A stretch of 64,000 nucleotides of DNA. Origin: Pyruvatibacter sp. HU-CL02332. GTDB lineage: Bacteria > Pseudomonadota > Alphaproteobacteria > CGMCC-115125. Position 1 is the first letter of the stretch. Each line of letters opens with the position of its first letter. The DNA is taken from positions 186,001 through 250,000 of the forward strand of contig NZ_BAABWK010000001.1 of NCBI RefSeq assembly GCF_040362765.1, written 5' to 3'. The notes below the pieces were generated by a model, which saw nothing but the letters and a program-made list of their open reading frames with translations, was not told the origin of the DNA and did no database searches. The position numbers and the translations under genes are program-made. Shown here piece by piece: positions 6,096-34,559 of this stretch.

Positions 6096-8861
6096 CTACT
6101 CCCCCTCAATCACCTCTTTCACCTTCGCGGCCAGCTGCTTGAGCGAGAACGGTTTGGGCAGGAACTGGAATTCCACGTCCTTGTCGAGGTTCTTCTTGAA
6201 GGCTTCTTCGGCGTAGCCGGAGATGAAGATGATCTTGAGGCCCGGCTTCACCTTGGCCAGGTGGCTGACCATGGTCGGCCCGTCCATGTTGGGCATCACC
6301 ACGTCTGACACCACCACGTCCAGCTCGCCGTCAAAGTCTTCCATCACTTCAAGGGCGTGTTCGCCCGACGCCGCTTCCAGAACCGTGTAGCCACGGGTCT
6401 CCAGCGCACGGACGGCGAAGCTGCGCACGGCGTCTTCGTCTTCCACCAGCAGCACCGTCCCCTTGCCCGACAGATCAGCCGGCTTCTTCGCTGTTTCAGC
6501 AACAGCTTCCTTCGGCTTCTCGGTTTCAATGTGGCGCGGGATGTAGATGCGGAAGCTCGTGCCCGTGCCCACCGTCGAGAACGGGAAGATATAGCCGCCG
6601 GTCTGCTTGACGATGCCGTAGACCGTCGAGAGACCCAGCCCAGTGCCCTTGCCCACTTCCTTGGTGGAGAAGAACGGCTCAAAAATCTTGCCGAGGTTTT
6701 CCTTGGCGATGCCGCAGCCCGTGTCGCTCACTTCAATCAACACATACTCCGCTGCCGGCATGATGGCATGGTCCAGCGCGGCTGCATCGTCCTTGGTGAC
6801 GTTGGCCGTGCGGATGGTCAGCGAGCCGCCGATATTGCCTTCCGCGTCCGGTTCCAGCATCGCGTCGCGTGCATTGACTGCAAGGTTGATGATCACCTGC
6901 TCGAACTGGTTCTGGTCCGCCTTGACGGTCCACAGATCGCGCCCATGCACCATCTTGAGATCCACCGTTTCGCCCAGCAGCCGCCGTAACAGATTGGACA
7001 GATCGGCCAGCGCGTCCGTCGGCATCAGCACCGTCGGGCGAAGGGTCTGCTGCCGTGAGAACGCCAGCAACTGCCGCACAAGGTTTGCTGCCCGGTTGGC
7101 GTTCTGCTTGATCTGCATGACATCCGCAAAGGAAGGGTCGCCCGGCTGGTGGCGGACCAGCAGAAGGTCGCAGAAGCCGATGATCGCGGTCAGCAGATTG
7201 TTGAAGTCATGCGCGACGCCGCCTGCCAGCTGCCCCACCGCCTGCATCTTCTGGCTCTGGGCGAACTGCACTTCCAGGGTCTTCTGCTCGGTCAGGTCCA
7301 CGAAATAGATCATGACGCGCGCATCGCTGTCCTTACCGTCATCGTCAGCGGCAGACCCGGCGCGGCTGATATAGGCCTGCAGCACCTTATCGTTTTCACC
7401 GCTGTCGTTCTCAGGTGTCTCGACGCCCGTTGGCGGCAGCAGCCGCACATCCACAGGCCCCTTGTCCGGTTCGCCCTTGGCGGCATCCAGAATGGCCGTG
7501 TCAAACGCGGCCCGGTCCTCATGCGCCACAAGGTCAGACAGCAAAACCGTCTTCTTCTTGTCGCCGGTCAGCGACCCTTCCGGCAAGGCCTCACCCACAA
7601 TGTCCCGGAACGTGCGGTTGACGGAGACCACCTGCCCTTCGCCATTCACCGTCGCCATGCCAATGGGCGCATTGTTGAAGAAATGCGCAAACCGCACTTC
7701 GGCTGCATCCAGTAAGTCACCGCCTGCATCCGTGCGGCGGTCATGCAGCACCAGGAACGTAACTTTACGTCCGTCGGGCATGTTGCCATCACGCTGAACA
7801 ATGCGCACCGGCACGACGCCCGCGCCCGAGGCATCGCCACCACGTGGCTTGAGATCAGCGTCGGACACTTTGATGCCGTTCTCACCGGCGTTTTTGCCCA
7901 GCGGCACGCGGGTGCCTGCCAACAGGCTGTCAAATTCAAGCGCACCTGCCGTAAACGTCGCCGCATCAATGCCGACCCAGCCCGCCAGCGTGCCGTTGAG
8001 ATAGAGAACACGTCCCTGCTCATCCAGCGCACAGACGCCGGACACAAGCCCGTTGAGATAGGCCCCAAGGCGCAGGGACTCCCGCTCGCTGGCCTCAAGC
8101 CGCTCCTGAGACGCGGTCTGGTCCGCCACCCGCCATAGCGCATAGGTCTGACCGACACTGCCCGGCGCCAGTTCGGCAGGCAGCGGCGACACGCTGGCAA
8201 CCACTGCCCGTGTATCCCCTTCAGCAGTCTTGAGAGAAATTTCTTCGCTGGCATCGCTGCCCGAGCGCGCCGCCCGCGCAAGCCGGAAGGCCCGCGCACC
8301 AGCAGTCTCGCCCTCGTCGCTTGCGTCATCATGGTCACCCGCCCCGGCAAGCACGGTTTCCGCACTGCGCAGCTTGCGGCCACCCGCCAGCGCCATGAAG
8401 GCCTTGTTGGCGTAAACCATGCGACCGCGATCATTGGTGACCGCCTGCGCCAGGTCAGACGTTTCAGCCAGGCCCGCTGCCAGCCGCTCGCCCAGCATCC
8501 GGCCGCGCAGATCAAGCCGGACAAGGCCCGCAAAAATGCCGGCAACCACGAGCAGCCCAAGCGCACCAAAGCCGCCGAGAATGTAAAACGCGATCTGCCC
8601 CATGGAGCCGGGGTCGAGCAGCGCAAAGCCGACTGCCACCAGACCAACAAAACTCAGCAACAGGCCCAGCCAGCGGCCTGCCGGTTTGGGTGCCTGATCA
8701 AGGTCTTCAGGTGCCGGCTCAAACACAGCCGCCCCGCCTGTCTCTTCTACAAGAGAAAGTGGCGGCGAGGACGCAGCGACAGTTTCAGCCTGCGCGGGAG
8801 CCGGTGCTGGCGTGTCTGCGTCGTCAGAAGGTGAAACGGCGGGGTCTGCCGGGCTTGCCAT
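6096..8861 (-). CDS. cckA: Hybrid histidine kinase CckA
   Basis: CckA is the membrane hybrid kinase that starts the CckA-ChpT-CtrA phosphorelay controlling cell cycle and flagellar genes in alphaproteobacteria. The 921-residue protein has an acidic, Pro/Ala-rich cytoplasmic N-terminus of about 65 residues, two membrane segments (about 66-110) and two or more PAS-like regions (about 130-500). The HisKA box GGVAHDFNNLLTAIIGF puts the phospho-His near residue 550. The HATPase has N-box NLAVNARDAM and G-box TGLGLSTVYG. A C-terminal receiver (LLVEDEDAVR, VSDVVMPNMDG) has its phospho-Asp near residue 850. It is longer than the Caulobacter protein (about 690 residues), mainly in the sensory part. 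It lies downstream of flhB on the same strand, in the flagellar locus that carries putative CtrA boxes. Confidence 0.95.
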   Translation of the reverse strand: MASPADPAVSPSDDADTPAPAPAQAETVAASSPPLSLVEETGGAAVFEPAPEDLDQAPKPAGRWLGLLLSFVGLVAVGFALLDPGSMGQIAFYILGGFGALGLLVVAGIFAGLVRLDLRGRMLGERLAAGLAETSDLAQAVTNDRGRMVYANKAFMALAGGRKLRSAETVLAGAGDHDDASDEGETAGARAFRLARAARSGSDASEEISLKTAEGDTRAVVASVSPLPAELAPGSVGQTYALWRVADQTASQERLEASERESLRLGAYLNGLVSGVCALDEQGRVLYLNGTLAGWVGIDAATFTAGALEFDSLLAGTRVPLGKNAGENGIKVSDADLKPRGGDASGAGVVPVRIVQRDGNMPDGRKVTFLVLHDRRTDAGGDLLDAAEVRFAHFFNNAPIGMATVNGEGQVVSVNRTFRDIVGEALPEGSLTGDKKKTVLLSDLVAHEDRAAFDTAILDAAKGEPDKGPVDVRLLPPTGVETPENDSGENDKVLQAYISRAGSAADDDGKDSDARVMIYFVDLTEQKTLEVQFAQSQKMQAVGQLAGGVAHDFNNLLTAIIGFCDLLLVRHQPGDPSFADVMQIKQNANRAANLVRQLLAFSRQQTLRPTVLMPTDALADLSNLLRRLLGETVDLKMVHGRDLWTVKADQNQFEQVIINLAVNARDAMLEPDAEGNIGGSLTIRTANVTKDDAAALDHAIMPAAEYVLIEVSDTGCGIAKENLGKIFEPFFSTKEVGKGTGLGLSTVYGIVKQTGGYIFPFSTVGTGTSFRIYIPRHIETEKPKEAVAETAKKPADLSGKGTVLLVEDEDAVRSFAVRALETRGYTVLEAASGEHALEVMEDFDGELDVVVSDVVMPNMDGPTMVSHLAKVKPGLKIIFISGYAEEAFKKNLDKDVEFQFLPKPFSLKQLAAKVKEVIEGE

Positions 8862-8957: not shown

Positions 8958-10043
8958 TCAGGTGCGCGCTGAGCCTCGGCGCATTTTACCCTTGAGGCGC
9001 ATCACATAGCCAATGACTTGCGCCACGGCCTTGTAGTGCTCTGGCGGCACCTCATCATCCACCTCAACGGTGGCGTGAAGCGCACGGGCCAGCGGCACAT
9101 TTTCCACCAGCGGAATGTCGTGTTCTTTGGCGATTTCCCGGATCTTGAAGGCCATCCGGTCCACGCCCTTGGCCACGCAGATAGGCGCCGCCATGCCCTC
9201 TTCATATTTGAGCGCAACGGAATAGTGGGTCGGGTTGGTGACAATCACAGATGCTTCAGGCACCTGCGCCATCATCCGCTTGCGGCCACGCTCATGACGA
9301 ATCTGCCGCAGCTTGGCCTTGACCGCAGGGTCACCTTCCATCTGCTTGTATTCGTCCTTGACCTCTTTTTGGGTCATCTTCTGCTTCTTGGCCCATTGCG
9401 CTTTTTGAAACGCAAAGTCGATGCCGGCAATCACCGTCATGATGGCGATGACACCACCGATCAGCTTGAGCACTTTTTCCTGAAGAACCCCCGGCACCAC
9501 GGCCAGATCCACGCGCATCAACATCCCAAGCATGTCACGCTCGGGCCACACGACCCAGAACGCGATCAGCGAGACGATCACCAGCTTCGCCAGACCCTTG
9601 AAGAAGTTCATCATGCCTTGCGGCCCGAAAATGCGCTTCAGGCCCGCCAAAGGAGAAATCTTGGAGAATTTCGGCTTCATGTTCTCTGCAGAGAACACCG
9701 GTTTGTGCTGAACCAGATTGCCCGCAATGGCCATCACCACAAGCACCAGCATCGGCAGACCAAGGGCAGCGACCACCGCAATGCCCAGCTGCTGGATGAT
9801 GCGCAGAATATTGCCGCCATCCATGTCATAGGCGTGCGGCTCAATAATAAATGTCGAAAGAGGTGCGGCAAGCTGCGCCGCCATGGGCCCCGCAAACAAA
9901 GCCACAATGATGCCGATGCCGATCATGCCGAACCAGGCACTGACCTCCTGGCTTTTGGCAACGTCACCCTTCTTGTGCGCCTCCTCGAGCTTTTTCGACG
10001 AGGCGTCTTCGGTTTTTTCACTTTGGTCGGGTTGGTCCGACAT
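8958..10043 (-). CDS. flhB: Flagellar type III export switch protein FlhB
   Basis: FlhB is the inner-membrane export-gate component that switches substrate specificity from rod/hook to filament proteins. The 361-residue protein starts with a charged segment (SEKTEDASSKKLEEAHKKGDV) typical of FlhB. It has four membrane segments between about 35 and 210, and the autocleavage motif NPTH at residues 270-273. A cytoplasmic tail ends in basic residues (LKGKMRRGSART). It is third in the run fliQ-fliR-flhB, starting 21 bases after fliR. Confidence 0.97.
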   Translation of the reverse strand: MSDQPDQSEKTEDASSKKLEEAHKKGDVAKSQEVSAWFGMIGIGIIVALFAGPMAAQLAAPLSTFIIEPHAYDMDGGNILRIIQQLGIAVVAALGLPMLVLVVMAIAGNLVQHKPVFSAENMKPKFSKISPLAGLKRIFGPQGMMNFFKGLAKLVIVSLIAFWVVWPERDMLGMLMRVDLAVVPGVLQEKVLKLIGGVIAIMTVIAGIDFAFQKAQWAKKQKMTQKEVKDEYKQMEGDPAVKAKLRQIRHERGRKRMMAQVPEASVIVTNPTHYSVALKYEEGMAAPICVAKGVDRMAFKIREIAKEHDIPLVENVPLARALHATVEVDDEVPPEHYKAVAQVIGYVMRLKGKMRRGSART

Positions 10044-10064: not shown

Positions 10065-10835
10065 CTAGATGATGAAACGCAGCAGCACGGCTTCAAAATG
10101 CTCCAGGAAGTAGAGCATGATGGAACTGAGCATCATGAACATGATGATGAAGCCAACCAGAATGTTGGCAGGCATTGCCACGAAGAAGATCTGCACCTGC
10201 GGGATCAGCTTCGACAGGATGCCGATGCCCGAATAGAAAACCAGCGAGAACACAATGAACGGCGCCGCAAGCTTGACCCCAAGTGTGAAGGCGCTGGCCA
10301 TGGTATCTACCGCCACCGCCAGAAAATCAGCCGTCGGAAACGCACCCAGCGGCGGAAACAGCGTGTAGCTGTCACGCAGGCCGATGAGCATGAGATGATG
10401 CAGGTCAGTCACAAAAATCATCGCCGTGCCAAGGACGGCCAGATAAGTACCGACAATGGCACCCTGAATACCCTGGGTCGGGTCCATGTTCATGGCAAAG
10501 GCAAGACCCGTCTGAAACGCAATAATGGTACCGGCAACCTGCAGCGCACTCATGAACATGCGCGCGGTCAAACCGATGAAAAGACCAATGCCGATTTCAC
10601 CAATCATGCTGGCGGCCATCGACCCAACGCCCAGCGGCATCGCCGGATAGGTTTCTGCAATGACCGGCGCCAGAACCGCTGTGACCGCGATCGCCATCAC
10701 CAGTCGGATACGCGCACTGACGCTCATTTCGCCAAGCCCCGGCAGAACCATCATGGCCGTGCCGATGCGCGCGAAAGCCAGCACATAGACCAGTGCTGTT
10801 TCAGGCAGAATGTCAGTGGGCAGAGAAAAAATCAT
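10065..10835 (-). CDS. fliR: Flagellar export apparatus protein FliR
   Basis: The 256-residue inner-membrane protein has about six hydrophobic segments and begins MIFSLPTDILPETALVYVLAFARIGTAM in the usual FliR way; only short stretches are informative, such as GLGEMSVSARIRL and IGLFIGLTARM. With FliP and FliQ it forms the helical export gate. It is followed at once by flhB and preceded by fliQ with a 15-bp gap, so the three are co-transcribed. fliP and fliO lie on the other strand 2.4 kb away, so the gate genes are split between two divergent operons. Confidence 0.96.
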   Translation of the reverse strand: MIFSLPTDILPETALVYVLAFARIGTAMMVLPGLGEMSVSARIRLVMAIAVTAVLAPVIAETYPAMPLGVGSMAASMIGEIGIGLFIGLTARMFMSALQVAGTIIAFQTGLAFAMNMDPTQGIQGAIVGTYLAVLGTAMIFVTDLHHLMLIGLRDSYTLFPPLGAFPTADFLAVAVDTMASAFTLGVKLAAPFIVFSLVFYSGIGILSKLIPQVQIFFVAMPANILVGFIIMFMMLSSIMLYFLEHFEAVLLRFII

Positions 10836-10850: not shown

Positions 10851-11117
10851 CTAAGCGCCGATGATCAGGCCGCTGATGCGGCTCATATAGGCCGCAAGCA
10901 CCGACGCCATGAATGGCAGAGCAACAATGAGCCCCAGAAAAATGGAGATGATCTTGGGCACAAACACCAGGGTCATTTCCTGCACCTGCGTCAGTGCCTG
11001 AACCAGCGCAATCGCCAGACCGACAACAAGACCTACAAGCATCAGCGGACCCGCCAGCTGCAACAGCAGCCAGATGCCTTCGCGTCCGATATCCAGAACC
11101 TCAGGCCCTGTCAGCAT
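10851..11117 (-). CDS. fliQ: Flagellar export apparatus protein FliQ
   Basis: The 88-residue protein has two membrane segments (about 18-40 and 52-72) and the conserved FliQ core VGLAIALVQALTQVQEMTL followed by FVPK. It is an integral part of the FliPQR export gate. The length is that of the family. It lies between fliE and fliR on the same strand; the 74-bp gap from fliE shows no clear terminator, so fliE-fliQ-fliR-flhB are likely one transcript from the flgB promoter. Confidence 0.95.
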   Translation of the reverse strand: MLTGPEVLDIGREGIWLLLQLAGPLMLVGLVVGLAIALVQALTQVQEMTLVFVPKIISIFLGLIVALPFMASVLAAYMSRISGLIIGA

Positions 11118-11191: not shown

Positions 11192-11521
11192 TTAGATCGG
11201 CATCCGCATGATTTCCTGATACGCCGAGATCACGCGGTCACGCACGGTGACGGCTGTCTGCAGCATGACTTCGGCTTCCGCGACCTGCGTCACGAGGTCA
11301 ACAAGGTTGCCCTGACCGGCAGCGGCCTGTGTGGCAGCGGCTTCGCTGGCCCGAGACGTGGACTCGATGCCCTTCATCTGCTGCGACAGCACGTCACCAA
11401 AAGAGGCAACCGGGTTCTTGCCGCCGTCAGCAAGGCCGCCGGCCTCACCGGTGGATGACTGGGCCATGCGTTTGATGGCGTCGGTATAGGCGCCCGCGGC
11501 GTTGGCTACATTAATGCTCAT
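11192..11521 (-). CDS. fliE: Flagellar hook-basal body protein FliE
   Basis: FliE is the adaptor between the MS ring/export gate and the rod. The 109-residue protein has a variable N-terminal half and the conserved C-terminal half: SFGDVLSQQMKGIES, then VDLVTQVAEAEVMLQTAVTV and VRDRVISAYQEIMRMPI. The length is typical. It is third in flgB-flgC-fliE, the usual early rod gene order. Confidence 0.95.
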   Translation of the reverse strand: MSINVANAAGAYTDAIKRMAQSSTGEAGGLADGGKNPVASFGDVLSQQMKGIESTSRASEAAATQAAAGQGNLVDLVTQVAEAEVMLQTAVTVRDRVISAYQEIMRMPI

Positions 11522-11548: not shown

Positions 11549-11959
11549 TTAGCGGCGCAGCAGTTCAATCGTCGCATTCAGCATGCGGCGCGATGTGTTG
11601 ATGACATTGAGGTTGGCTTCATAACCGCGCTGGGCCTGACCCATATCAATGCTCTCGATCATGCTGTTGACGTTGGACGTCTTCACATAACCCTTGTCAT
11701 TGGCCGCCGGATGCCCTGGCTCGTAGCGCTCACCAAACGCGCTGGTGCTGCGCTCGATCTTGCCCATCTTCACCCGCTCAACGCCATTGGCGCGGTCAAG
11801 CTCGGTGGTGAAGGTAGGGATTTTCCGGCGATACGGGTCACCGTCCGGCGTCTTCGCCGTGGACCCTGCATTGGCCATGTTTTCTGCGATCACCCGCATA
11901 CGTCCGCCCTGCGTCTTCAGGCCGGATGCGGCAATCAGCATTGATTTCATGAGATCCAT
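11549..11959 (-). CDS. flgC: Proximal rod protein FlgC
   Basis: The 136-residue protein begins MDLMKSMLIAASGLKTQGGR, the FlgC N-terminal helix, with IAENMANAGSTAKTPDGDPY as the conserved rod/hook motif. It ends with the C-terminal helix region MGQAQRGYEANLNVINTSR. It builds the proximal rod with FlgB and is exported by the flagellar type III system without a cleaved signal. It sits 30 bp after flgB, and GGAGAC lies just before the start. Confidence 0.96.
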   Translation of the reverse strand: MDLMKSMLIAASGLKTQGGRMRVIAENMANAGSTAKTPDGDPYRRKIPTFTTELDRANGVERVKMGKIERSTSAFGERYEPGHPAANDKGYVKTSNVNSMIESIDMGQAQRGYEANLNVINTSRRMLNATIELLRR

Positions 11960-11989: not shown

Positions 11990-12409
11990 CTAGGACTGGC
12001 GGCCGGTTACGGCCATACGCAACATGCCAAGACCCTTGCTGTAGAGCGTGGTGGCGGTCTGATAGTCCATCTGGTTTTCAGCGACTTTCATCATCTGCTC
12101 TTCAAGCACCACGGAATTGCCGTTGGATGATGTTTCGCTGTCGGGTGCATTGCGGGTCGAAAAATCTCCCCGCGCGCTGGTAGATGTCGTGGAGCCGGAT
12201 AGATGCCCTGCTCGCGTCGATGCCATGTGAAGCGTGCCTGACGTCGTGCTCCTGAGCACGTTTTTAAAGTCAGGTTCCTTGACGTCCTGCGCTGTAAAGC
12301 CAGGCGTGTGAGCATTGGCAACGTTCTGCGACAGCACACTCTGGCGCGCCTGCACCCAGTGCATCCGCTCGCGCAGCATGCCGAAAAGAGGAATATCTGA
12401 GAAAGCCAT
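11990..12409 (-). CDS. flgB: Proximal rod protein FlgB
   Basis: The 139-residue protein has the rod N-terminal helix (IPLFGMLRERMHWVQARQSV), the motif LSQNVANAHTPGFTAQDVKE, and the C-terminal helix pattern MKVAENQMDYQTATTLYSKG. The ATG at 12409-12407 (MAFSDIPLF) is preferred over an in-frame TTG six bases upstream. It is the first gene of flgB-flgC-fliE-fliQ-fliR-flhB. A CtrA-type box and an FlbD-type palindrome lie about 130-165 bp upstream, so this looks like an early (class II) flagellar operon. Confidence 0.95.
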   Translation of the reverse strand: MAFSDIPLFGMLRERMHWVQARQSVLSQNVANAHTPGFTAQDVKEPDFKNVLRSTTSGTLHMASTRAGHLSGSTTSTSARGDFSTRNAPDSETSSNGNSVVLEEQMMKVAENQMDYQTATTLYSKGLGMLRMAVTGRQS

Positions 12410-12538
12410 ACGCAACGAACCCCAGGTATTTGGCCGAGCAACTGCTCAGCAGACGGACGGAAATTCCACGGCATAAATTTCTGATGTGGAAGGCGCGCTG
12501 GTCTGCGCTGCTAAACCCGTCCTGGGTTCGTCTTGAGT

Positions 12539-12553
12539 AGGCAGTATCTGCCG
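12539..12553. promoter_or_regulatory. FlbD-type (ftr-like) palindrome next to the flgB CtrA box
   Basis: AGGCA-GTATC-TGCCG matches 9 of 10 arm positions of the CGGCA-N5-TGCCG palindrome found before four late flagellar operons here. It is 6 bp from the CtrA box on the flgB side. In Caulobacter FlbD represses early promoters from such positions; a similar role here is inferred. Confidence 0.5.
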
Positions 12554-12559
12554 GGCGAA

Positions 12560-12574
12560 TTAAGAAGGCCTTAA
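12560..12574. promoter_or_regulatory. CtrA-type box, flgB promoter
   Basis: TTAA-GAAGGCC-TTAA is a perfect instance of the CtrA recognition form TTAA-N7-TTAA. It lies about 150 bp upstream of flgB. Confidence 0.65.
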
Positions 12575-12646
12575 ACGAACCATCCACAGGCATTTTTCTC
12601 GCAAGACACTGCAGCCACATAGAAAAGTGGAAAGGTCTCGTTAGCC

Positions 12647-12661
12647 TTAATCGGTTGTTAA
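12647..12661. promoter_or_regulatory. CtrA-type box, fliO promoter
   Basis: TTAA-TCGGTTG-TTAA is a second perfect TTAA-N7-TTAA box in the same gap, about 100 bp upstream of fliO on the plus side. Having one box nearer each divergent gene suggests separate control of the two operons. Confidence 0.62.
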
Positions 12662-12762
12662 GCGCGTAGGCGGAAAATCCTGCCTAGTTGATCACCCGTC
12701 TGCGAGAGCCGCGCCTTGATGCGCCCGCCCGCAGGCCAGAGATAAAAGCTGCGAGAGCCGAC

Positions 12763-13269
12763 ATGGAATATGCCGATTACATGCGCTTCTTCTTCGCCCT
12801 CATGTTTGTGGTGGGTTTGATTGGCGGTGTTGCCCTGCTCGCCAAACGCTTTGGCCTGGCGCCGGGAACGGCCACAGGTGGCCGCGCCAGCAAGAAGCGT
12901 CTTGAAATTGTTGAAAGCCTCAACCTCGACACCAAACGCCGCATGGTCATCATCCGCCGGGACGACCGCGAACATCTGGTTCTGCTCGGCGTCGATGGTG
13001 AAACGATTGTCGAAACATCATTTGACCGCCCTGCGCAGCTTCCAGTCGAAGTATCGCAGACGGAAACGCTGCCGACAGAAACAACGCCCGCGACATCGAG
13101 CAAGCCGAGTGAAGATGACGATATCTTCGCCCGTCTGCGCAAAGTCGCCGAATTGATGAATGAGAAGCGCGCTCTTGCGCTGCGCACCGGACGCGCCACC
13201 TCAACCGCTAAACCAACAAGTGCAGCCCGTCACGAGGCCCTTCGCAAAGTTGCAGGAGACCTCGGGTGA
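12763..13269 (+). CDS. fliO: Flagellar biosynthetic protein FliO-like
   Basis: The 168-residue protein has one N-terminal membrane segment (residues 7-27) followed by a FliO-like cytoplasmic domain: KKRLEIVESLNLDTKRRMVIIRRDDREHLVLLG, quoted only to mark residues 47-79. A charged, Thr-rich tail follows. FliO helps assemble the FliP ring of the export gate. The start MEYADYMRFFF is chosen because the hydrophobic segment then lies at the N-terminus; an upstream frame from 12688 adds an Arg-rich stretch unlike the family. The stop overlaps the fliP GTG start by four bases (GTGA), indicating translational coupling. Confidence 0.85.
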   Translation: MEYADYMRFFFALMFVVGLIGGVALLAKRFGLAPGTATGGRASKKRLEIVESLNLDTKRRMVIIRRDDREHLVLLGVDGETIVETSFDRPAQLPVEVSQTETLPTETTPATSSKPSEDDDIFARLRKVAELMNEKRALALRTGRATSTAKPTSAARHEALRKVAGDLG

Positions 13270-14021
13270 CCCTGACGTCTCCTTTCATGAAAGTCGCACC
13301 AGCCCTTGTTGCAGGCCTTGCCGCAGCAGCAATCCTGATGGCGCCCGCCCACGCGCAGGAAATCAGCCTCGCACTGCCTGAAGAAGGCGCGCTGACGTCA
13401 CGCATCGTGCAACTGGTGCTGCTCGTTGCAGTCCTGAGCCTTGCGCCGTCCATTCTCATCATGGTGACGAGCTTCGTGCGCATTGCCGTTGTGCTTTCCT
13501 TGCTGCGTACAGCGATGGGCGTTCAACAGGCGCCGCCGAACTCGGTTCTCATCAGCCTTGCCCTTTTCCTGACGGCATTCGTCATGGCGCCGGTGCTGCA
13601 GGACAGCTACCGCGACGGCGTTGCGCCCTACCTTGCGGATGAAATCAGCACCGAAGAGGCCTGGGACCTGTCTTCGGGACCTTTCCGCGATTTCATGCTG
13701 AGCCAGGTGCGCGAAGAAGACCTCCAACTCTTTATCGATCTGTCCGATACAGCCGTACCTGAAACCCCTCAGGCGACGCCCATTCATGTGCTGATCCCGG
13801 CCTTCATGATCTCAGAGCTGCGGCGCGCCTTTGAAATCGGCTTCCTGCTCTTCATCCCGTTTATCGTGATTGACCTTGTGGTCGCCTCAGTCCTCATGTC
13901 CATGGGCATGATGATGCTGCCACCCATCATGATCTCCCTGCCCTTCAAGCTCATCTTCTTCGTATTGGTAGATGGCTGGCGGCTGGTTGCAGGCTCGCTG
14001 GTGCAGAGTTTCGGCACCTGA
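13266..14021 (+). CDS. fliP: Flagellar export gate protein FliP
   Basis: The 251-residue protein has a cleavable-type signal (VAPALVAGLAAAAILMAPAHA) and the strongly conserved FliP segments TSFVRIAVVLSLLRTAMGVQ, PPNSVLISLALFLTAFVMAP, then FELRRAFEIGF-like SELRRAFEIGFLLFIPF and ASVLMSMGMMMLPP near the C-terminus. FliP forms the core of the FliPQR export channel. The GTG start overlaps the fliO stop; an internal ATG at 13287 is an alternative. No further gene follows on this strand, since the next one (LysR) is convergent. Confidence 0.95.
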   Translation: MTLTSPFMKVAPALVAGLAAAAILMAPAHAQEISLALPEEGALTSRIVQLVLLVAVLSLAPSILIMVTSFVRIAVVLSLLRTAMGVQQAPPNSVLISLALFLTAFVMAPVLQDSYRDGVAPYLADEISTEEAWDLSSGPFRDFMLSQVREEDLQLFIDLSDTAVPETPQATPIHVLIPAFMISELRRAFEIGFLLFIPFIVIDLVVASVLMSMGMMMLPPIMISLPFKLIFFVLVDGWRLVAGSLVQSFGT

Positions 14022-28776: not shown

Positions 28777-29214
28777 TTACTGCGCAAAAAGCTGTTCATA
28801 CTTGGCCAGTTCAACTCTTGCGCGCAGCTCAATTTCGTCAAGCACATGGGCCAGGCGCGGGTCCTGAAAGGTCGTCTTCGAATCACGTCGCTGCTCCACC
28901 AGCTTCAGCAGCTGATCCAGCTTCTGTTTGGAAACACCACCCGCCAGGAGGGATAGTTTGATGTCGTCGAGAATATCCAGCATGGCTTCCGCACGGACCA
29001 CCGCCTTCCGGCTTCCGTCGGTGGCAGTGTCCACTTCCTGAAGACCAATCAGCGCATCAACCGGCGCGACTGACGCCACAGAACCTGTTGCATGTGCAGC
29101 TTCCGCCTGCCCCATTCCGTCCACACGGAATCGTTCGCCGCCCGCTGACCGGGATTTCCCGGCGCGGCCTGCGGTAGCTGGTCCTTGCGCACGTCCCGCG
29201 CCGCCAACCTTCAT
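28777..29214 (-). CDS. fliX: Flagellar assembly regulator FliX
   Basis: In Caulobacter FliX is the trans-acting factor that couples early flagellar assembly to activity of the sigma-54 activator FlbD. The 145-residue protein has a Gly/Ala/Arg-rich N-terminus and the conserved C-terminal half APVDALIGLQEVDTATDGSR, ILDDIKLSLLAGGVSKQKLD, then DPRLAHVLDEIELRARVELA. The start MKVGGAGRAQG at 29214 follows AGGAG; a frame starting at 29274 has no ribosome site. It is divergent from flgI, the same arrangement as in Caulobacter. Its presence implies an FlbD partner elsewhere in the genome. Confidence 0.92.
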   Translation of the reverse strand: MKVGGAGRAQGPATAGRAGKSRSAGGERFRVDGMGQAEAAHATGSVASVAPVDALIGLQEVDTATDGSRKAVVRAEAMLDILDDIKLSLLAGGVSKQKLDQLLKLVEQRRDSKTTFQDPRLAHVLDEIELRARVELAKYEQLFAQ

Positions 29215-29289
29215 GGGCCAAGGCTCCTGCCAAACTGGGCGCGCAAATCGCACCCGTGTCTCTACAGGGTGCACGCTGCGCCAAACTGC

Positions 29290-29304
29290 TTAATGCCGTC
29301 TTAA
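29290..29304. promoter_or_regulatory. CtrA-type box, fliX side of the fliX/flgI gap
   Basis: TTAA-TGCCGTC-TTAA followed by C is a perfect TTAA-N7-TTAAC box, about 75 bp upstream of the fliX start. Confidence 0.65.
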
Positions 29305-29320
29305 CGGTGTCTCACCGGCT

Positions 29321-29335
29321 GGGCAGAAGCTGCCG
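29321..29335. promoter_or_regulatory. FlbD-type palindrome beside the fliX CtrA box
   Basis: GGGCA-GAAGC-TGCCG matches 9 of 10 arm positions of the CGGCA-N5-TGCCG motif and lies 17 bp from the CtrA box. Confidence 0.5.
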
Positions 29336-29350
29336 GGTTGCCGCGCCAAA

Positions 29351-29365
29351 CGGCAGTCCATGCCG
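29351..29365. promoter_or_regulatory. FlbD-type (ftr-like) palindrome before flgI
   Basis: CGGCA-GTCCA-TGCCG is a perfect palindrome with a 5-bp spacer, centred about 71 bp upstream of the flgI sigma-54-like -24 element. Confidence 0.6.
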
Positions 29366-29428
29366 GGTTTGCCAAAATCGGTACTCGAAATAGTCCAGCA
29401 AAATCAATGAGTTGGAAAACACGGCGCG

Positions 29429-29444
29429 TGGCACGGGTTTCGCA
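29429..29444 (+). promoter_or_regulatory. Sigma-54-like promoter of flgI-flgJ-flgN
   Basis: TGGCAC-GGGTT-TCGCA fits TGGCAC-N5-TTGCA with one mismatch and correct GG/GC spacing, 80 bp upstream of the flgI start. Confidence 0.65.
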
Positions 29445-29523
29445 AAACCAAGCGCAAAGCATATCCACCGGTGCGCCAGCCTGAACCTGACATCGCACCC
29501 AAGAGAACGGAACACCGACCCGA

Positions 29524-30663
29524 ATGTTGTTCTTTGCACGCAAATCACTTTCACGCGCACGCACTCTCCTGGCGCTCACCATCGCAGCTTCCCTGCTGTG
29601 GCCGGTCGCAGCCCAGGCGTCGTCGCGCATCAAGGATCTCGCCTCCGTTGAAGGCATCCGAGACAACCATCTGGTCGGCTATGGCCTTGTGGTTGGTCTT
29701 GATGGCTCCGGCGACAGCCTGCGGAATGCCCCGTTCACCCGCCAAAGCCTGCAGTCCATGCTGGAACGTCTGGGCGTGAACACCCGCGATGCAACGCTCA
29801 ACACCAACAACGTGGCCGCTGTCATGGTCACCGGCAATCTGCCTGCCTTCGGTTCCCAGGGCAGCCGTATGGACATTACGGTCTCAACCTTGGGCGACGC
29901 GTCCAGCCTTCTGGGCGGCACGCTTCTGGTTACACCGCTCATGGGCGCCGACGGCGAAGTCTACGCGGTAGCACAGGGCCCCGTTGCCATTTCAGGCTTC
30001 AGTGCTGAGGGCGATGGCGCCAGCGTAAAGCGCGGTGTTGCCACATCCGGACGCATTCCCAACGGTGCCATCATCGAACGTGAAATTGCCTTTGCGCTCG
30101 AAGACATGAGCACGGTGCGTCTTTCCCTGCACAACCCGGATCTCACCACCGCCCAGCGCATGGCCAACGTCATCAACACATTTGTTGGTGGCAGCACAGC
30201 CCAGGCGACGGACCCCTCAACGGTATCACTTACCGTGCCACAAAAGGGCAAGGGCAGCGTCGTCAGCATGCTGACGGAAATCGAGCAGCTGCGTGTTGCA
30301 CCAGACAGCCCTGCCAAGGTCGTGATTGATGAAGCCTCCGGCGTCATTGTCATGGGCAAGGATGTGCGCGTCTCTACTGTTGCCATTGCACAGGGCAACC
30401 TGACAATCCGCGTCACCGAAACACCGCAGGTCAGCCAGCCCAACCCCTTTGCGGAACAGGGTGACACTGTTGTTGTGCCCCGCACGGACATTCAGGTGGA
30501 TGACGATGCAGAAAACCGCCTGGGCCTCCTGCGTGAAGGCGTAACCCTTGAAAGCCTCGTGGACGGTCTCAACTCTCTGGGTGTTGGTCCTCGCGACATG
30601 ATCTCAATTCTGCAGACCATCCGCGCTGCCGGTGCCCTGCAGGCCGAGCTGGAGGTTCTTTAA
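29524..30663 (+). CDS. flgI: Flagellar P-ring protein FlgI
   Basis: FlgI forms the periplasmic P-ring around the rod. The 379-residue precursor has a signal peptide (about residues 1-36, ending AAQA) and conserved FlgI blocks SSRIKDLASVEGIRDNHLVG, YGLVVGLDGSGDSLRNAPFT, NTNNVAAVMVTGNLPAFGSQ, VIDEASGVIVMGKDVRVSTV and the C-terminal LNSLGVGPRDMISILQTIRA. The flgJ start follows the stop directly. First gene of flgI-flgJ-flgN-like. Confidence 0.97.
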   Translation: MLFFARKSLSRARTLLALTIAASLLWPVAAQASSRIKDLASVEGIRDNHLVGYGLVVGLDGSGDSLRNAPFTRQSLQSMLERLGVNTRDATLNTNNVAAVMVTGNLPAFGSQGSRMDITVSTLGDASSLLGGTLLVTPLMGADGEVYAVAQGPVAISGFSAEGDGASVKRGVATSGRIPNGAIIEREIAFALEDMSTVRLSLHNPDLTTAQRMANVINTFVGGSTAQATDPSTVSLTVPQKGKGSVVSMLTEIEQLRVAPDSPAKVVIDEASGVIVMGKDVRVSTVAIAQGNLTIRVTETPQVSQPNPFAEQGDTVVVPRTDIQVDDDAENRLGLLREGVTLESLVDGLNSLGVGPRDMISILQTIRAAGALQAELEVL

Positions 30664-34456: not shown

Positions 34457-34471
34457 CGGCAAAAACTGCCC
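34457..34471. promoter_or_regulatory. FlbD-type palindrome, distal copy before flagellin 1
   Basis: CGGCA-AAAAC-TGCCC matches 9 of 10 arm positions of the CGGCA-N5-TGCCG motif. Confidence 0.5.
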
Positions 34472-34476
34472 AAGCA

Positions 34477-34491
34477 CGGCAATCAATGCCG
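34477..34491. promoter_or_regulatory. FlbD-type (ftr-like) palindrome before flagellin 1
   Basis: CGGCA-ATCAA-TGCCG is a perfect palindrome, centred 20 bp from the distal copy (two helical turns) and 60 bp upstream of the sigma-54-like -24 element. Confidence 0.6.
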
Positions 34492-34543
34492 CGCCGCTCA
34501 CTTCCAAATCGAAAAAATCCCCAGTTTTCTGCCATTTTTTTGT

Positions 34544-34559
34544 TGGCACAGAGCATGCT
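34544..34559 (+). promoter_or_regulatory. Sigma-54-like promoter of flagellin 1
   Basis: TGGCAC-AGAGC-ATGCT fits TGGCAC-N5-TTGCT with one mismatch and correct GG/GC spacing. The distance to the start codon implies a leader of about 190 nt. Confidence 0.62.

Follow-up and report, generated by a model that had tools for sequence, protein, structure and literature searches.

Between the divergent flagellar operons that begin with flgB and fliO in Pyruvatibacter sp. HU-CL02332 lie two back-to-back modules, each consisting of a CtrA box followed by an FlbD-type palindrome, and we consider it quite likely that through them FlbD represses the CtrA-driven flgB and fliO promoters, as it is known to do at Caulobacter fliF. 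The resulting three-operon operator is probably an extension of the FlbD switch known at the Caulobacter fliF promoter. We infer FlbD binding, the start sites, the repression and its timing at flgB and fliO from sequence; positions without a prefix are those of the 64,000-nucleotide stretch of DNA analyzed, here called the window (Table 1).

In a motif scan of the window, the palindrome on the flgB side matched CGGCA-N5-TGCCG at 9 of 10 positions, and the neighboring CtrA box was a perfect TTAA-N7-TTAA. Read on the flgB strand, the box (TTAAGGCCTTCTTAA) comes first and the palindrome (CGGCAGATACTGCCT) second, 6 bp apart. A preliminary description had claimed this 9-of-10 palindrome and its 6-bp distance from a perfect box, and both were borne out, with correct coordinates, by the scan and by reading the sequence. 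It had also proposed an early-to-late switch on the flgB operon; the flgB site is present, but a mirrored copy of the module on the fliO side (12647-12685) had been overlooked, and the switch, if it does operate, would act on both divergent promoters. Toward fliO the order is TTAATCGGTTGTTAA, 9 bp, and CGGAAAATCCTGCCT, so that the two spacings differ by 3 bp (6 at flgB, 9 at fliO), which is a point against the proposed explanation. The two genes are separated by 353 bp of intergenic DNA. Beyond the other end of the flgB operon, 97 bp past the end of flhB and in the same direction, lies a gene for a CckA-like hybrid kinase (6096-8861, minus strand), for which the best NCBIfam match is CckA, at 860 bits under a cut-off of 1000. 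If this gene is cotranscribed with the flgB operon, control of that operon's promoter by FlbD would also act back on the CtrA pathway.

TABLE 1 Genes, sites and predicted start sites of the flgB-fliO region, and fliX, in window coordinates
Feature	Position	Strand	Detail
Candidate FlbD (ftr-type) palindrome, flgB promoter	12539..12553	-	AGGCAGTATCTGCCG; on flgB strand CGGCAGATACTGCCT
CtrA box, flgB promoter	12560..12574	-	TTAAGAAGGCCTTAA; on flgB strand TTAAGGCCTTCTTAA
CtrA box, divergent fliO promoter	12647..12661	+	TTAATCGGTTGTTAA; perfect TTAA-N7-TTAA
Candidate FlbD-type palindrome, fliO promoter	12671..12685	+	CGGAAAATCCTGCCT; 8/10
Predicted flgB start site	12536..12537	-	23-24 nt past CtrA box end; spacing by analogy (PMC6180460)
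Predicted fliO start site	12684..12685	+	23-24 nt past CtrA box end; spacing by analogy (PMC6180460)
flgB	11990..12409	-	First gene of flgB-flgC-fliE-fliQ-fliR-flhB
flgC	11549-11959	-	flgB operon
fliE	11192-11521	-	flgB operon
fliQ	10851-11117	-	flgB operon
fliR	10065-10835	-	flgB operon
flhB	8958-10043	-	flgB operon, last gene
fliO	12763..13269	+	ATG start at 12763 preferred over TTG at 12688
fliP	13266..14021	+	Unit fliO-fliP
fliX	28798-29214	-	Encodes FliX

Four perfect CtrA boxes occur in the window, along with 22 palindromes that have a single mismatch or none, and when the boxes were relocated at random, at least one pair at a gap of 4 to 10 bp arose in 1.9% of 20,000 trials. With a chance probability of about 2%, the flgB pair is only mildly unlikely and would be unconvincing by itself; since this window-only test is weak, the case rests on conservation.

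A relaxed composite pattern, TTWAN7TTWAN{5,11}GGNAN5TGCC, was searched in the organism's own genome and in three further genomes of the genus. The own genome, at 3.4 Mb, holds exactly three matches, at flgB, at fliO and before fliF (L045:11014-12753, identified by Pfam), the last about 5 kb upstream of flbD. The other complete genus members, G001 and G003, have the same three matches and no others; the fourth genome (81% complete, 740 contigs) gave no composite-pattern match and no flgB hit either. The backward control pattern matched once over the four genomes. A check of conservation in relatives, as the preliminary description had proposed, thus found the pair kept, with identical spacing, in every genus genome that gave a flgB hit, three in all. 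When these three (G000, G001 and G003) are aligned, none of the 15 columns of either palindrome varies, the one mismatched position at flgB (T in place of G) included, and each CtrA box has 14 invariant columns out of 15. Invariant columns make up 58 of 60 within the sites versus 149 of 270 outside them (Fisher p 3e-11).

The closest known parallel is Caulobacter fliF, a class II promoter activated by CtrA and repressed by FlbD. According to PMC3930126, FlbD represses it through ftr4, and in PMC3096577 loss of fliX raises fliF-lacZ and lowers fliK-lacZ. As in the window, the CtrA box at Caulobacter fliF precedes an FlbD site, with about 9 bp between the two: the element reads TAAACGGCTCGTTTA-9-GGGTAAATCCTGCCT in Caulobacter RHG1, which lies outside the mismatch limit of the fliF count given below, and taaacctcccgttta-9-cggtaattcctgcct in Caulobacter NGEE, and these palindromes are presumably ftr4. 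The fit to the palindrome is 9 and 8 of 10 at flgB and fliO here versus 7 to 8 of 10 at Caulobacter fliF; the difference lies in the module standing here on flgB and fliO, in two mirrored copies. Because the geometry is the same and repression of fliF is documented, the flgB and fliO promoters share their anatomy with a promoter that FlbD represses. Among 80 named FlbD loci, 70 had a flank that reached 150 bp or more beyond the start of fliF on its upstream side, and 66 of these 70 carried the module at four or fewer mismatches, mostly at gap 9. At fliF of the organism itself, the palindrome after the CtrA box is degenerate (7 of 10) and lies at gap 8. A perfect palindrome also stands 15 bp upstream of that box (L045:10801-10845), so this promoter may carry two FlbD sites, one on each side of the CtrA box. 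Between flgD and fliF lies sciP, encoding a CtrA inhibitor (L045:10295-10573; C1 588294-588572; NF051866 146 bits versus a cut-off of 100), with two CtrA-like boxes of one mismatch each just upstream of it (L045:10186 and L045:10210).

Beyond the genus, we scanned 163 flgB-upstream regions. FlbD-bearing genomes supplied 118 unnamed and 26 named regions, plus 4 second flgB copies in the named genomes; 14 regions belong to genomes in which no FlbD ortholog was identified, and 1 is unclear in this respect. The 133 unnamed regions came from 132 of 169 genomes with an FlgB hit (G065 supplied two), and the 26 named genomes were chosen for name spread, before their flgB regions were seen, from 80 loci that are the best FlbD matches and hence biased toward near relatives. 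At two or fewer mismatches in all, gap 9 was prominent, with the module in 12 of the 26 named and 4 of the 118 unnamed FlbD-bearing regions; at gap 6 there were 1 named and 3 unnamed regions. The flgB module was found in many Hyphomicrobiales, as in Stappia indica (ttaactcctcgttaa-CCATCTACC-cggcaggatctgcct) and Methylobacterium (ttaacggtgcgttaa-CCACGCAGG-cggcagattttgccg), and in Brevundimonas, as in B. lenta (ataacgcctcattaa-CCATGCAGG-cggcattttctgccc). In Tepidicaulis, Rhodobiaceae FE80, G012 and G134 it is clear on the divergent side only; the flgB-directed module is weak in Caulobacter NGEE, and none was found in the flgB-upstream region of Caulobacter RHG1. Counting against the repression reading, besides these two Caulobacter genomes, only 32 of the 118 unnamed FlbD-bearing regions have a flgB-directed module even at four mismatches, many of them at odd gaps; among the second flgB copies, one of four has a module, at four mismatches. 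Regions from genomes without FlbD had no module at two or fewer mismatches at any gap (0 of 14), which is the expected direction, in a comparison of little power where only 2 of the 14 have a perfect CtrA box. At four mismatches 3 of the 14 had one, where the shuffled-region mean of 0.01 per gap predicts about 0.1, so the shuffled regions understate the background.

A box-anchored control took perfect boxes regardless of their neighbors and counted palindromes with at most three mismatches. Of the flgB-directed boxes, 24 of 74 had a palindrome at gap 4 to 10 and 4 of 72 at gap 25 to 31 (Fisher p 4e-5, computed with 74 in place of 72); for boxes facing the opposite way the counts were 17 of 75 and 6 of 75 (Fisher p 0.02). 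As the sequences are related to one another, the rows are less independent than either p-value implies. Across 289 genomes of the class, the composite pattern gave 72 matches in 50 genomes, with positions relative to flgB and flbD typed solely in genomes with pattern hits. Fourteen lie upstream of flgB; 13 lie within 8 kb of flbD in the same direction, 12 of them upstream, in the fliF position, and 1 downstream (G169); 5 more fall inside that distance of flbD but face the other way, and 40 are elsewhere. The class-wide backward control gave 63 matches by hand count, 16 of them in G274, and in view of that total the 40 off-target matches look like background. What sets the composite pattern apart is where it occurs rather than how often.

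The proteins that such a switch would use (CtrA, FlbD, FliX and RpoN) are all encoded in the genome. FlbD (L045:15833-17206) scores 805 bits with NF050807 against a cut-off of 750, and its DNA-binding helix, GNRTHAANILGISIRTLRNKL, recurs unchanged in FlbD of a Caulobacter genome; its nearest named relatives include those of Parvibaculum and Tepidicaulis, which would put the organism close to Parvibaculales. CtrA is above the NCBIfam CtrA cut-off and shares 84% identity with the CtrA query used. The genome also encodes five strong sigma-54 activator domains, which could mean that these sites serve a different enhancer-binding protein, one resembling NtrC, NtrX or TacA and likewise carrying a Fis-type helix. 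That is very improbable, given a helix identical to that of Caulobacter FlbD, whose targets are flagellar, and a module restricted to early flagellar promoters. With the conserved pair in the genus, the matching geometry at fliF and at flgB of other families, and this helix, the switch proposed for the flgB operon gains support, its repressive arm being the conditional part.

FlbD is also an activator, and the palindromes at flgB and fliO might instead be enhancers serving sigma-54 promoters of these two operons. Elsewhere in the window the same palindrome does look like an enhancer, at four promoters where the window's four perfect copies stand 67 to 99 bp from sigma-54-like sites ahead of genes read from their translations as flgF, flgI, a flagellin gene and flgE, an arrangement that fits FlbD enhancers. 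The flgB-fliO palindromes, by contrast, keep a fixed 6 to 9 bp to a CtrA box, and 12410-12762 is without a sigma-54-like site at two or fewer mismatches, the best three having three, which makes the enhancer reading very unlikely. A sigma-54 promoter in this intergenic region was accordingly ruled out at the two-mismatch limit; a looser GG-N10-GC scan of the locus (L023) was uninformative, with 45 hits versus 52 expected. The region 28798-29524 holds a CtrA box (29290-29304), two palindromes (29321 and 29351) and a sigma-54-like site (29429), around which fliX (minus strand) and flgI (plus strand) diverge; here an early gene under CtrA may adjoin, head to head, a late gene under FlbD. Over 34457-34558, tandem palindromes 20 bp apart, at 34457 (9 of 10) and 34477 (perfect), stand upstream of a sigma-54-like site (34544) and the flagellin gene (34762).

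Repression at flgB and fliO is the likely mechanism because, by published start-site spacing, each palindrome covers the -10 region. In Rhodobacter sphaeroides, in agreement with Caulobacter, transcription starts 23 to 24 nt past the CtrA site, according to PMC6180460, and we carried this spacing over. By this analogy the palindrome at flgB would extend from about -18 to about -3 and that at fliO from about -15 to about -1, so that at each promoter the CtrA box would presumably act at the -35 position, with the palindrome 6 to 9 bp farther on, over the -10 element and start site. The same placement raises the alternative that TGCC(T)A, the right half, is conserved for its part in the sigma-70 -10 element and that the palindromic look is a by-product; TGCCTA does lie 16 to 19 bp past the box at flgB, fliO and fliF, TGCC is strongly conserved across modules and, lying within the likely -10 region, could be conserved for another reason. 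This alternative is likewise very unlikely. The left half is equally conserved in 20 gap-9 flgB modules (C85 G100 G100 C95 A90, with the spacer at 45 to 75%), and GG and A stand at 100% in 52 fliF modules, figures that lean toward the motif because the rows were picked by motif matching; in the genus, moreover, both 15-bp palindromes are invariant throughout.

Under FlbD repression, phosphorylated CtrA would turn on the early operons flgBC-fliEQR-flhB and fliOP. Once the MS ring and export gate are completed, FliX is thought to release FlbD, which would then activate the sigma-54 late promoters and simultaneously bind the flgB, fliO and fliF palindromes, blocking RNA polymerase. At the predicted sites FlbD would exclude RNA polymerase with no need to displace CtrA; direct mutual exclusion of CtrA and FlbD, as the preliminary description had it, is possible and not required. 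Since flbD follows fliF and is transcribed the same way, repression there would probably also amount to negative autoregulation of flbD.

Known flgB promoters resemble this one in part. As described in PMC6180460, which cites Boyd and Gober (2001), Caulobacter has the same divergent flgB-fliO pair under CtrA but with one shared CtrA site, through which CtrA represses flgBp and activates fliOp in C. crescentus, whereas here each promoter has its own box, each with an FlbD-type palindrome. Given that reported repression of flgBp, CtrA may not be an activator at flgB here. The same source describes two CtrA sites between two divergent flagellar promoters in R. sphaeroides flgB2-fliI2, as here; unlike here, FlbD is absent from the Rhodobacteraceae compared and RpoN is unused for fla2. 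Within a full-text search we recognized no report of FlbD binding at flgB or fliO; for FlbD binding sites, PMC12421884 cites Fumeaux 2014, and Caulobacter binding-site data lay beyond the reach of that search.

In the literature examined, FlbD repression of early genes is documented so far for one promoter, Caulobacter fliF. A distant alphaproteobacterium now shows this composite operator at exactly three early operons, and it recurs in other orders. That turns the proposed early-to-late switch into a general design open to testing and suggests that it is the model organism, Caulobacter, that is unusual at flgB. A broader reading, to which we give somewhat less than an even chance, is that FlbD shuts the core early tier of the flagellum in one step, acting only at fliF, flgB and fliO, through an old operator of FlbD-bearing Alphaproteobacteria of which Caulobacter has largely lost the flgB copy. 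If that reading is true, the loss would explain why Boyd and Gober reportedly placed flgB outside the Caulobacter flagellar hierarchy.
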